Source: a virus
Strand: one strand, 5' to 3'
Length of the DNA stretch: 30,378 nt
Virus record (IMG/VR): IMGVR_UViG_3300042691_003169
Location: 1 to 30,378 of that record
In this document: positions 4,649 through 18,787 of the stretch, piece by piece
How the letters are laid out: every line of letters starts with the position of its first letter
Position numbering within the stretch: the stretch's first letter is position 1
Notes under the pieces: generated by a model
What the model was told of the DNA's origin: nothing
The model's input: the letters and a program-made list of their open reading frames with translations, nothing else
Database searches by the model: none
Program-made: the position numbers and the translations under genes

Positions 4649-4917
4649 TGACTTTGCCTATCGAGTCTGGGCGTTTGACGGTTGGGACTACACCCGTTCA
4701 AGTAGACGGCGTAGGCGTTTCCCCTATTCGCATTTACGTTCACAACGAAGAACCGACTAAGACTTTATATGTAGGCAACGGTAACGTTACGGTTCTAAAC
4801 GGGTTTGGTATCGACAAGTCAAGCGTTCAAGACTTTCTAATCTTTCCGGGTCAGTCGCTTTGGATAGTTTCAGAATCAGCGGGACACGTGGTCAGTTATC
4901 TAAGGATACCCGTCTAA
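4648..4917 (+). CDS. Small beta-rich head-module protein, unknown
   Basis: 89 aa, predicted almost all beta ('SGRLTVGTTPVQVDG', 'PIRIYVHN', 'TLYVGNGNVTV', 'SLWIVSESAG'). It has no membrane segment and no cysteines. The portal stop and its ATG overlap, and its own TAA overlaps the protease ATG at 4917. Small beta proteins in this slot of actinophage genomes are usually unassigned; a virion decoration role would fit but is not shown by the sequence. Confidence 0.8.
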   Translation: MTLPIESGRLTVGTTPVQVDGVGVSPIRIYVHNEEPTKTLYVGNGNVTVLNGFGIDKSSVQDFLIFPGQSLWIVSESAGHVVSYLRIPV

Positions 4918-6839
4918 TGCCTTACTTCATTACGGACGAAAGCTCAGACTGCTCAGGTTGGGCGGTCGTCGATTCTGCGGGCGAAGTTTTTGGTTGCCAC
5001 GAAACAAAAGACTCAGCGATAAAGCAAGCGGTCGCTATCAGTCTTGGCGACGACGAACCTTTTATGGGAGAACGAAATGAAAATGGCGACCCGATTATTA
5101 TTAGTGATCTTGACGACACTCTTATTCGTGGTCGTTCTCTAATTCGCAAGACCTACAACTATTTACAAACTCTCGACGGGGCTTTATTCCTAGTTACAGG
5201 CAGACCGACCGCCGACGAAGCGGAAACCCGCCAGACCCTAAAAGACTTAGGCGTTCGCTATACTCGACTAATTATGAATCCCGGTTCGCTTGCCGAATCG
5301 ACCGACTTCAAGAAGGCAACCGCTGAGAAGTTGCTTGAAACTTACAACGTGCTAGAAGCGGTCGAGAATAACGCCGAAACTTTGCGGGCTTACCGTTCGC
5401 TCGGTATCAAGGCGACCGACCCAGCCGACCTACCCGAAGAGAACTCGGTTAGGGCTATAAATCAAGAAGCCCCCGCTTATATGAGAGCCGCCGCTCGACG
5501 CGGGCTTGAGTATTACGAGCAGGGACTAGCAGGGGACGGCGTAGTCGATCGCACTATCCGAGAAGCTCGACTAATGGCGGACGGTCAAGTTAGCGACGAC
5601 AAGTGGGTTCGAATAGCGGCGTGGATCGCCAGACACCTAGTAGACCTTGATAGCCCAGACGCAGACCCGAACTCGGACAACTATCCTTCGGCGGGCGTAG
5701 TCGCTCACTTGCTTTGGGGTAGTGGACCAAGTAAGCGGGCGGCGGAACGTGCTAAAGATTACGCCGACTCGGTAGTTAGTAGAATTAGGGAAGAAGAAGA
5801 AAGCGAACGTATGACTGAAGAAAATCGCGCATTACCGGGCGAACTTACCGTCGGCGACTATGTTGCTTGGCTTATCGGAACTGAAGCCTATGCTGGAGAA
5901 ATTGTTGAGCTTATGGACGAATCTGCCGAAGTAGTAATCTACAACGAAGAAGATCACGTCTGGCTTCCAACGGGTCTAAAGGTTACCGTCCCTATCGCCG
6001 ATCTCAAGAAGGTAGACCCGCTAATCGAACCCGAAGAACTCCCAGAACTTACCGAGTCTATGATTATCCCTACCCGGACGAAGTGGCTCAACGCCGCTTA
6101 CGCTATCAAGGCAAGAATCGAAGGGGTTACGGACGAAGGCAGGGCTAAGAACCCTAACGAAACCCGAATCGCCGACGTTACTTTCGAGCTTAGGGAAACG
6201 ACCGACGGTATGACTTTCGAAGGCTACGCAGCGGTTTTCAATTCAGACTCTAGCCCGCTACCCTTTATCGAACGTATTGCTCCGGGTGCTTTCTCGAAGA
6301 GCCTAAAGTCTAGGAACGACATAAAGCTTCTATGGAATCACGATACGGGAATCGTTCTTGGATCGACTAGGGCTGGCACTCTTCGACTTATGGAAGATAG
6401 TTTCGGTCTGAAAGCGGTCGCTTCTCTACCAGACACCCAAGCGGGACGGGACGCGGCGGTGTTGCTCAAGCGTGGCGACGTTTCGGCTATGAGTTTTGGC
6501 TTTACCGTTCCTACGGGCGGCGACTCTTGGGATAAGACGGGCAACGTTCGCACCCTAAACCGAGTTTCTCTCCACGAAGTTTCTTTAGTGGCTTTCCCCG
6601 CATATAGTTCGACGACCGGGACGACTTCAGTTCGCTCAGTCGAAGGCGGTATCGACGCAGACACTCTCGCAGACGCACTACTGAAACTCGAACTAGGTGA
6701 AGAGTTAGAAGCAGACCAAGCAACCCTAGTTACCGAAGTAGTTGGTAAACTTACAAAGACTCCAGAAGTTCAAGAAGTCGAAGGCGATATCTTAGCTCTG
6801 AAGAAGAAGAAACTCGATCTACTAATGTTAGGAATCTAA
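4917..6839 (+). CDS. Multi-domain prohead protease with N-terminal HAD phosphatase-like domain
   Basis: 640 aa from ATG 4917, which overlaps the preceding stop (an in-frame ATG at 4860 would overlap 58 nt). Residues 1-48 are a small domain with 'CSGWAVVD' and 'GCHETKDSAI', seen in actinophage maturation proteases. Residues 59-175 are HAD-like: motif I 'DLDDT' (64-68), 'VTGRP' (93-97), a lysine in 'DFKKATAEK', and 'VENNAET' where acidic motif IV is expected. Residues ~185-290 are helical. Residues ~308-365 have an SH3/KOW-like strand pattern ('GDYVAWLIG'). Residues ~415-565 are the HK97 prohead protease (U35): 'FEGYAAVF', 'LWNHD' (H475), 'MSFGF' (S526), 'HEVSLVAFP' (553-561). The protease should trim the capsid delta domain. 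Whether the HAD part is enzymatic or a scaffold is unknown. Confidence 0.9.
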   Translation: MPYFITDESSDCSGWAVVDSAGEVFGCHETKDSAIKQAVAISLGDDEPFMGERNENGDPIIISDLDDTLIRGRSLIRKTYNYLQTLDGALFLVTGRPTADEAETRQTLKDLGVRYTRLIMNPGSLAESTDFKKATAEKLLETYNVLEAVENNAETLRAYRSLGIKATDPADLPEENSVRAINQEAPAYMRAAARRGLEYYEQGLAGDGVVDRTIREARLMADGQVSDDKWVRIAAWIARHLVDLDSPDADPNSDNYPSAGVVAHLLWGSGPSKRAAERAKDYADSVVSRIREEEESERMTEENRALPGELTVGDYVAWLIGTEAYAGEIVELMDESAEVVIYNEEDHVWLPTGLKVTVPIADLKKVDPLIEPEELPELTESMIIPTRTKWLNAAYAIKARIEGVTDEGRAKNPNETRIADVTFELRETTDGMTFEGYAAVFNSDSSPLPFIERIAPGAFSKSLKSRNDIKLLWNHDTGIVLGSTRAGTLRLMEDSFGLKAVASLPDTQAGRDAAVLLKRGDVSAMSFGFTVPTGGDSWDKTGNVRTLNRVSLHEVSLVAFPAYSSTTGTTSVRSVEGGIDADTLADALLKLELGEELEADQATLVTEVVGKLTKTPEVQEVEGDILALKKKKLDLLMLGI

Positions 6840-7014: not shown

Positions 7015-7051
7015 CCCCGCCAGACTTCCCCCTTTCGTCTGGCGGGGTTTT
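7015..7051 (+). terminator. Rho-independent terminator
   Basis: An 11-bp perfect stem (CCCCGCCAGAC at 7015-7025 with GTCTGGCGGGG at 7037-7047), an 11-nt pyrimidine-rich loop and TTTT at 7048-7051. It closes the operon that ends with the 52-aa gene and separates it from the tmRNA-like RNA and the capsid gene. Confidence 0.9.
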
Positions 7052-7056
7052 CATTG

Positions 7057-7139
7057 GGGCTAGGTAATGGTTTCGATTAGTCGTAAAACCCGAAACGGGA
7101 ACGGCTAAGACCAGAGTTCGATTCTCTGCTAGTCCACCG
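7057..7139 (+). ncRNA. tmRNA-like RNA reduced to the tRNA-like domain
   Basis: Acceptor stem GGGCTAG (7057-7063) pairs with CTAGTCC (7129-7135) over 7 bp, with a G-U at the third pair, the alanine identity mark of tmRNA and tRNA-Ala; A at 7136 is the discriminator. Next comes a 5-nt linker and GGTTTCGA (7069-7076), the stemless D-loop box of tmRNA. A helix TTAGTCG (7077-7083)/CGGCTAA (7102-7108) takes the place of tmRNA helix P2. It is capped by 18 nt containing the hairpin CCCG-AAA-CGGG (7089-7099). GAC then leads into a T-arm CAGAG-TTCGATT-CTCTG (7112-7128). The end, CCACCGA, is like actinobacterial ssrA. No tag reading frame or pseudoknots fit in 18 nt. It lies just after a terminator, so it needs its own promoter or is processed from read-through. 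Confidence 0.75.
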
Positions 7140-7176
7140 AATCTGTATTACATACACCATTTAGAATTGACTTAGG

Positions 7177-7217
7177 TTCTGAGTCTGCTCGACCTGCTTC
7201 TGTTCTGAGTCTGCTCG
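7177..7217 (+). repeat. 15-bp tandem direct repeat before the capsid gene
   Basis: TTCTGAGTCTGCTCG occurs exactly at 7177-7191 and 7203-7217, 26 bp from start to start, 39 bp before the major capsid ATG. The spacing is about 2.5 helical turns. The second copy runs into CTGC-TCG-GCAG, a small potential hairpin (7211-7221). A TTGACT -35-like hexamer lies just upstream at 7167-7172, but no convincing -10 follows at 17-18 bp. A regulator binding site or promoter element is possible. Confidence 0.6.
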
Positions 7218-7255
7218 GCAGAAAAACCCCCTAATTCATTTATCAAAGGAATCTA

Positions 7256-8410
7256 ATGTCTGAGTTCATCAAAGCTCAAGCAGACGTTCGTTCAAACCTT
7301 ATCGCGCAGGTTCGAGAAGTTATCGACCTAGCCGAGCAGGAGAAGCGTGGACTATCTGCTGAAGATCTACAGAAGATCGACCGTCTAGAAGCAGATATTG
7401 CTTCAGCGGACTCTTCTATCGCTACCGCACAGAAGGTTGCTCAGCGTTCGGCTGAAGCGGCTGAAGCGGCGGCTTCGTTCGTCCCTACCGCTGAAACTTC
7501 GACTACCGACGCAGACACTTTGCGCTCGATCGCTCGCGGTGAAATGCGTGGAACTGAGTTCTCGCGTCGTGCGGCTCTAGTGCCTTCTGCCAACACCGTC
7601 GGTCAGTCTTTCTATGACCAAGTATTTCAGATTGCTACTTTGGTTGGTCCTATGCTTCAGACTTCAGAAGTTTTCAACACCACTTCTGGAGAGAACCTAG
7701 TTATCCCAACCGCTACCGCAATTTCTGGTTCAACCGCTACTGCGGCAGGATCGGCACTTGGCGAAAGCAACCCAACCTTCAGCTCAATTACTTTGGGCGC
7801 AACCAAGTTCGGCGCACTTGTTAGTGTCGCTAACGAGCTAGTCGCAGACGCAGGTTTCGACATCACCGCCTATATCGCACAGCAGTTGGGAACTTCACTC
7901 GGTATCGCTATGAACACCGAACTTACTACTGGAACTGCGGGTCTTGCGACTTCAGCAGGTTCGGTTGTTACTGGTGGCACAGGCGTAAGCGGTGTGGCTT
8001 CTTACGAGAACCTAATCGACTTGGTGTATGGAATTGCCGACGGCGCACGTGTGTTGCCGGGCTTGGGCTTCCAAATGTCTAAGTCAGGTATCGCGGCGGC
8101 TCGCAAGCTAAAGGACGGCGCAGGTAACTACATCTGGCTCGACAACGCAGTAAACGGTCAGCCAGCACAGTTGCTCGGTTACCCGGTTTACGAGAACCCA
8201 GCAGTTGCGGCAACTGGAACTGGCACAAAGTCAGTTCTGTTTGGACACCTACCTTCTTACAAGGTTCGCGTCGCAGGTGGAATCAGGATCGACCAGTCAA
8301 GCGATTACGCTTTCAACACAGACGTTACAACGTTCCGTGGCGTAGTTCGCGTCGGTGGTGGCTTGACCCACGCAACCCACGTAGGTTACTTCAAGGGTGG
8401 CGCAAGCTAA
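7256..8410 (+). CDS. Major capsid protein (HK97 fold)
   Basis: 384 aa. Residues 1-~75 are a charged, coiled-coil delta domain ('IAQVREVIDLAEQEKRGLS', 'DLQKIDRLEADIASADSSI') that acts as an internal scaffold and is normally removed by the prohead protease. The remainder matches the HK97-type capsid family (Phage_capsid), including 'LVIPTATAISGST', 'KFGALVSVANELVADAGFDI', 'SGIAAARKLKDGAGNYIW' and 'LLGYPVYENPAV'. The start has a good ribosome site, AAAGGA, 9 nt upstream. The gene stands alone between the terminator/RNA block and a second terminator, suiting a strongly expressed single gene. Confidence 0.95.
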   Translation: MSEFIKAQADVRSNLIAQVREVIDLAEQEKRGLSAEDLQKIDRLEADIASADSSIATAQKVAQRSAEAAEAAASFVPTAETSTTDADTLRSIARGEMRGTEFSRRAALVPSANTVGQSFYDQVFQIATLVGPMLQTSEVFNTTSGENLVIPTATAISGSTATAAGSALGESNPTFSSITLGATKFGALVSVANELVADAGFDITAYIAQQLGTSLGIAMNTELTTGTAGLATSAGSVVTGGTGVSGVASYENLIDLVYGIADGARVLPGLGFQMSKSGIAAARKLKDGAGNYIWLDNAVNGQPAQLLGYPVYENPAVAATGTGTKSVLFGHLPSYKVRVAGGIRIDQSSDYAFNTDVTTFRGVVRVGGGLTHATHVGYFKGGAS

Positions 8411-18478: not shown

Positions 18479-18787
18479 CTAATTGTCCGACTCTTGACCC
18501 TTCAAGCGAGATTCCTTCTTCGCAAGCCTAAGTAGCTCACGCTCGGTCGCGGTCGTCCCGCCCCAGACGCTTTCGGCTTCGTGAGCGGATAGGGCATAAT
18601 CTAGGCACTTCTGAATAACCGGGCAGGTTTGGCAGACTTCTTTCGCTTCTTTCTCGGCGGATCGTATAAGAGCGGGGTCGCCTTCGGGGTAGTAAAGCAG
18701 GTATCTTTCGACGCAGGGCGGCTCTTCGTCTAGGTTACGAATAGATAACATTAGCTCGGAATAGAGTTTGCTTTGTCGGTGGCTCAT
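18479..18787 (-). CDS. WhiB-family transcription regulator
   Basis: 102 aa with the four iron-sulfur cysteines C25, C52, C55 and C61 (C-x26-C-x2-C-x5-C), then the WhiB turn 'VWGGTT' (74-79) and a basic C-terminus ('ELLRLAKKESRLKG'). WhiB proteins occur only in actinobacteria and their phages and bind the primary sigma factor to alter promoter choice. This is the only minus-strand gene in the window. It is convergent with the lysis genes and divergent from the recombination operon across 47 bp, a natural place for a switch. Confidence 0.95.
   Translation of the reverse strand: MSHRQSKLYSELMLSIRNLDEEPPCVERYLLYYPEGDPALIRSAEKEAKEVCQTCPVIQKCLDYALSAHEAESVWGGTTATERELLRLAKKESRLKGQESDN

Follow-up and report, generated by a model that had tools for sequence, protein, structure and literature searches.

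A phage RNA that keeps the tRNA-like domain of tmRNA without the tag message belongs to a large covarying family

What kind of RNA is encoded by 83 nt lying upstream of the major capsid gene of a freshwater phage, and what might it do during infection? The element occupies positions 7057–7139 on the plus strand of the window, by which we mean the whole stretch of DNA analysed (30,378 nt; IMG/VR record IMGVR_UViG_3300042691_003169, positions 1–30,378). According to the original prediction it comprises the whole tRNA-like domain (TLD) of tmRNA and no tag domain, and direct reading of the sequence found every part in place. The acceptor stem is formed by GGGCTAG (7057–7063) and CTAGTCC (7129–7135), with the G3-U70 pair at 7059 and 7133, and is followed by the discriminator A73 (7136) and then CCG. 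A stemless D-loop of 13 nt, GTAATGGTTTCGA (7064–7076), ends in the tmRNA D-loop box GGTTTCGA (7069–7076), and the P2 helix (7077–7084 with 7101–7108), a tmRNA-like GAC ahead of the T-arm (7109–7111) and the T-arm CAGAG-TTCGATT-CTCTG (7112–7128) complete the features by which the tRNA-like domain of tmRNA is recognised, all in the standard 5'-to-3' order. Two predicted dimensions needed correction: P2, correctly recognised, has 8 bp and not 7, since T7077 and A7108 also pair (a pair that covaries as C-G, T-A, T-G or A-T in related RNAs), and the spacer between its strands, which does hold the predicted CCCG-AAA-CGGG hairpin (7089–7099), is 16 nt long (7085–7100) rather than 18, consisting of AAAA, the hairpin and a single A. 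This cap replaces the entire mRNA-like domain with its tag frame, and the pseudoknots between P2 and the tag are likewise absent, there being no sequence able to form them.

The original prediction had proposed ARAGORN and Infernal with tmRNA models as a check, and neither recognised the element: ARAGORN did not call it, and Rfam/Infernal searches at E-values up to 1 returned nothing for it, RF00023 included. Nor is it an ordinary tRNA, having no D-stem, no anticodon loop and no recognition by ARAGORN or RF00005. Folding of the single sequence was unremarkable (z = -1.75), and BLAST found no true relative of the window region among phages or of the element among plasmids. With the annotation programs silent and the single-sequence fold weak, the case for the RNA rests on its relatives. 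A covariance model (R1) built from 12 of them, with the window left out, found the element at 68.7 bits (E = 2.5e-15), which excludes a chance origin. RF00023 behaved differently on other members: seven of the eight relatives checked scored 57–72 bits against its cut-off of 47, and in these seven (L256, L258, L259, L085, L089, L116 and L228) the above-threshold match spanned model positions 1–374 although the RNAs are 81–83 nt long and tagless, so that automatic annotation can label such RNAs as full tmRNAs.

Among 80 related contigs gathered through the capsid protein, the same RNA recurred at the equivalent position, with the head protease region on one side and the capsid gene on the other, in L002–L008, L012, L026 and L027, with compensatory changes in P2. 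In the six distinct sequences from these close relatives, 97.7% of the cells were paired, eight pairs changed on both sides (4.1 in shuffled alignments), and the covariation score was 0.355 compared with 0.134 after shuffling (reached in 0/500 shuffles) and at most 0.124 in slid controls. One contig, L009, carries a capsid protein that is 91% identical and does not have the RNA, which indicates that the element is modular and optional.

The immediate surroundings raise the possibility that the element acts in cis, as a tRNA-like processing site at which RNase P and 3' nucleases cut the transcript to separate the head-gene messages, as in tRNA punctuation. It directly follows a strong terminator-like hairpin with a T tail (7015–7052, plus strand), which was read from the sequence and is unscored in our scan limited to 8-nt loops, it has a tRNA-like 3' end, and in about 33 loci a member of the family lies between protease and capsid genes. 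Against this stand the other members, some of which are solitary and others set in tRNA arrays or amid replication genes, and the close relative L009, which manages without the element; moreover, RNase P substrates require neither a G3-U70 pair nor the tmRNA D-loop box. Given such varied contexts, we consider a cis-acting processing site unlikely, indeed improbable. No promoter was found by a promoter scan. The downstream neighbour, which is not part of the RNA, is the major capsid gene (7256–8410, plus strand; PHROG major head protein, E = 1.4e-51). Its leader contains two tandem hairpins of one design (7175–7222), a candidate leader RNA element that precedes the capsid gene in most relatives whether the mini RNA is present or absent; across ten sequences, each hairpin shows two-sided changes at one central pair (T-A, C-G, A-T). 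Upstream, the N-terminal part of the head maturation protease open reading frame (4878–6836) resembles polynucleotide kinase (phrog_415). Elsewhere in the window, a tRNA-Gly(TCC) gene (1128–1200) runs in the same direction as a Mom-like DNA-modification gene (564–1214) and overlaps its 3' end, and a sub-threshold match to Rfam RF04354 (Plastid-ycf2 5'UTR) on the minus strand of 1128–1200 is the antisense of this tRNA, suggesting that RF04354 itself may be antisense-tRNA-like. A gene for a WhiB-like regulator (18479–18787, minus strand) points to an actinobacterial host.

Searching IMG/VR with a TLD-only pattern, in which the middle (27–55 nt) was free and T70, A73 and the D-loop were fixed, matched at least 120 viral contigs, nearly all matches being 62–69 nt long. 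After removal of duplicates and a demand for acceptor and P2 pairing, 97 curated unique sequences remained. Because this demand itself selects for pairing, the main test of P2 was run ahead of the filter, on all 104 unique matches, with the P2 columns read by distance alone from GTTTCGA and GAC. At these fixed offsets P2 was paired in 89% of the cells, compared with 34–41% when one side was slid by 1–3 positions, and all four Watson-Crick pair types occurred at P2 positions 2–6. An alignment of 12 equal-length sequences (A2), those from which R1 was built, had 97.8% of its cells paired, changes on both sides in 16 of 23 pairs (10.6 in shuffles, 0/500) and a covariation score of 0.738 (0.175 shuffled, 0/500); the MAFFT alignment A1, in which the acceptor strand was misplaced, was kept out of all counts. 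Covariation extended over P2, acceptor positions 4–6 and the T-stem, and modestly over the apical hairpin, which in the usual family cap takes the form AAAR, a CCGC-NN-GCGG hairpin and then A. The invariance of GAC across the family is no test, since GAC was fixed in the search patterns. The compensatory changes that the original prediction had named as a check are thus strongly present, in P2 and beyond, against shuffled and slid controls alike. The window RNA is a real structured RNA gene and not a one-off: its family among phages is large and for the most part unannotated.

Does selection maintain the parts of the RNA that would matter for its charging? Conservation of T70, A73 and the D-loop among the first matches is uninformative, as all three were fixed in that pattern. 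Scans demanding another base at position 70 or at position 73 gave no match each, compared with at least 120 with T70 and A73, and as a control for these we ran a scan with the cap and T-arm fixed (in IUPAC codes) and the acceptor and D-loop left free. It returned 34 contigs with 20 unique RNAs, every one of which had G3, U70, A73 and seven acceptor pairs, and 18 of which had the D-loop box GGTnTCGA. The G3-U70 pair is the main identity element of alanyl-tRNA synthetase (AlaRS), and the elbow formed by D-loop and T-loop is the binding site of SmpB. The alanine identity signal of the original prediction is therefore borne out in every member of an unbiased scan, and charging with alanine appears to be under selection; the loops presumed to touch SmpB are also retained, and from this pattern of conservation selection for charging and for a tmRNA-type elbow is a sound inference. 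C occupies position 74 in 90 of the 97 members and in 137 of 138 neighbouring tRNAs, and 24 of the 97 encode the CCA end. Of 135 loci, 24 have a tRNA no more than 300 nt away, often at a distance of 0–6 nt. The tandem placement at 0–6 nt from tRNAs in several phages, together with the tRNA-like C74, suggests tRNA-like processing, and the base 74 and CCA pattern is as expected of an RNA that would be matured like a tRNA.

An alanine-type acceptor on a molecule with no anticodon arm would also suit a role as alanyl-tRNA donor away from the ribosome, such as in the tRNA-dependent modification of lipids, peptides or the cell wall. The enzymes concerned have no need of a D-loop box, which the family nevertheless retains, and no enzyme recurs as a partner; we regard such a role as very improbable.

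The contexts of the RNA vary from a place upstream of the capsid gene to one beside replication or recombination genes (assigned by reading the protein sequences, without a family search), in tRNA arrays or alone, and no partner gene recurs across them. Cultured carriers include the Streptomyces phages LuckySocke, pSt2308, BRock, Shaeky and Riptide and the Stenotrophomonas phage Jojan60, while for GiJojo and Alone3 the similarity is by BLAST alone. None of the inspected named-phage records annotates the mini RNA as a tmRNA. No SmpB gene was found in 20 phage records, so host SmpB would be used. Riptide (L262, PV654398) encodes both a mini TLD-only RNA with a degenerate D-loop (83298–83377) and a full-length tmRNA (94862–95130). 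Several candidates were rejected as members: Tunturi_4 and SM1, whose ARAGORN tmRNA* calls we took as permuted tmRNA; Cosmo and Calle_1, whose annotated tmRNAs measure 419 and 360 nt; and Gordonia GMA2 and Ruegeria RpAliso, which matched R1 weakly. In the Tunturiibacter phage Tunturi_4 (L260), the probably permuted tmRNA* has as its neighbour a gene annotated as a release factor with an RF-1 domain, possibly forming a rescue cassette.

Phages often have att sites that contain the 3' end of ssrA, and the window RNA could in principle be one of these or a captured, decaying fragment of host ssrA. What such a site looks like is seen in Gordonia Yeezy and Mycobacterium Niklas, rejected as members, where only the 3' end matched and a tyrosine integrase lay beside it. 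The window RNA has both ends, joined through a compact cap, no integrase was recognised nearby, and its covariation shows that it is maintained as an RNA. The form is also nearly absent from bacterial genomes: about six short-form matches were found among 84,980 species, some on contigs that look like phage, and in one actinobacterial class 4 of 395 genomes carry it, the query genome included. Most bacterial-genome matches of 78–89 nt were rejected as apparent 3' portions of ordinary tmRNAs. An att site, which the original prediction had already argued against, or a host fragment is contradicted by this evidence and scarcely probable.

What, then, would the RNA do? Our best reading, which we consider probable on the analogy with a published molecule, is that of a TLD-only tmRNA, charged via host AlaRS and using SmpB and EF-Tu, that antagonises host trans-translation. 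Once expressed and processed like a tRNA, it would receive alanine from host AlaRS, which would recognise G3-U70; host SmpB and EF-Tu would bind it and deliver it to stalled ribosomes, and by titrating SmpB, occupying the A site or both it would antagonise trans-translation in infection. Antagonism is suggested by the missing mRNA-like domain, without which the RNA offers no resume codon, no tag and no stop codon, and by the published behaviour of the RNA of mycobacteriophage DS6A, which is classed as 'TLD only' (PMC4131195; tmRNA Website). As summarised in PMC4131195, which cites Mao et al. 2009, a DS6A-like molecule strongly inhibits tmRNA whether chargeable or not, perhaps via SmpB titration, and PMC11915505, citing earlier work, describes inhibition of endogenous tmRNA by the TLD-only form in E. 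coli. The competition with host trans-translation proposed originally therefore has a precedent, and the original interpretation as a whole, in which the RNA may block, redirect or perform rescue, is partly supported. As a counterpoint to antagonism, the gain to a phage from blocking rescue is unclear, since other phages carry full tmRNAs (PMC9004378) and Riptide carries both forms.

The main rival to antagonism is a rescue without tagging, in which the alanyl-charged RNA and SmpB would take over the nascent chain on the stalled ribosome and add one alanine, after which the peptide would be freed untagged, with Pth or a release factor as possible agents, so that ribosomes are recycled and products spared. 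Active peptide transfer needs the strictly kept G3-U70 and A73 and titration does not, whereas to our knowledge no termination step is known that works without the mRNA-like domain, and neither a release factor nor SmpB recurs as an adjacent phage gene. According to PMC11915505, tag-less mitochondrial tmRNAs persist alongside an SmpB encoded in the nucleus, and a role in dealing with incomplete mRNAs is suggested for them; the DS6A-type RNA, for its part, is described as an inhibitor of tmRNA and not as a replacement (PMC4131195). On this balance we judge tagless rescue rather unlikely.

The strict conservation of the charging signal bears on both readings. As the uncharged DS6A-like molecule is also summarised as inhibitory (PMC4131195) and the natural G3-U70 is kept, plain SmpB titration does not explain the conservation; if the uncharged form inhibited equally, loss of G3-U70 would be expected among members, yet it was seen in none, which leaves room for active ribosome entry and for tagless capture or rescue. 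We therefore put forward, tentatively and as a possibility rather than an expectation, that RNAs of this kind form a widespread phage class active in capturing or rescuing ribosomes without a tag, by which phages would rewire trans-translation and not merely titrate it, with no encoded protein partner; charging would then be strictly kept because the nascent chain is passed to an RNA that SmpB and EF-Tu bring into stalled ribosomes. With 97 curated unique members, the family suggests that targeting or exploiting ribosome rescue by RNA alone is common among phages, and the strict G3-U70 poses a sharp question: if titration of SmpB suffices for inhibition, why do members never lose the charging signal? 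Several cultured carriers, one of them infecting Streptomyces lividans, make direct testing possible.

The kind of molecule is already known from one phage. The 2025 tmRNA database paper, which counts 79 bacteriophage tmRNAs and, overall, 9 standard-form sequences without a CDS, names no phage other than DS6A for the reduced form (PMC11915505); the attB of DS6A is listed in a tRNA-Lys gene and not in ssrA (PMC10865867). A search of the open literature found no description of such an RNA family, and as far as could be checked neither the family nor its structure nor its conserved charging signal has been described. With the bacterial one-piece tmRNA (ssrA, RF00023) the window RNA shares the G3-U70 acceptor, the stemless D-loop, P2, GAC and the T-arm, and it differs in its length of 83 nt and in lacking the mRNA-like domain, pseudoknots and tag frame. 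Permuted two-piece tmRNAs, in which the T-arm and 3' half come first and the mRNA part lies elsewhere, are set apart by its standard order. The full-length tmRNAs of mycobacteriophage Bxz1 and methylophage Melnitz are likewise phage-encoded and may affect rescue in infection, but, as described in PMC4131195 and PMC9004378, have an mRNA-like domain and a tag. Tag-less mitochondrial tmRNAs and the plastid tmRNAs of about 65 bp in Mallomonadaceae are similarly CDS-less and reduced towards the TLD; they are organellar and not phage-borne, and the mitochondrial ones work with a nucleus-encoded SmpB (PMC11915505). Compared with the DS6A RNA, to which it is likened by the published description of that molecule, the window RNA stands in a head operon and belongs to a large covarying family.
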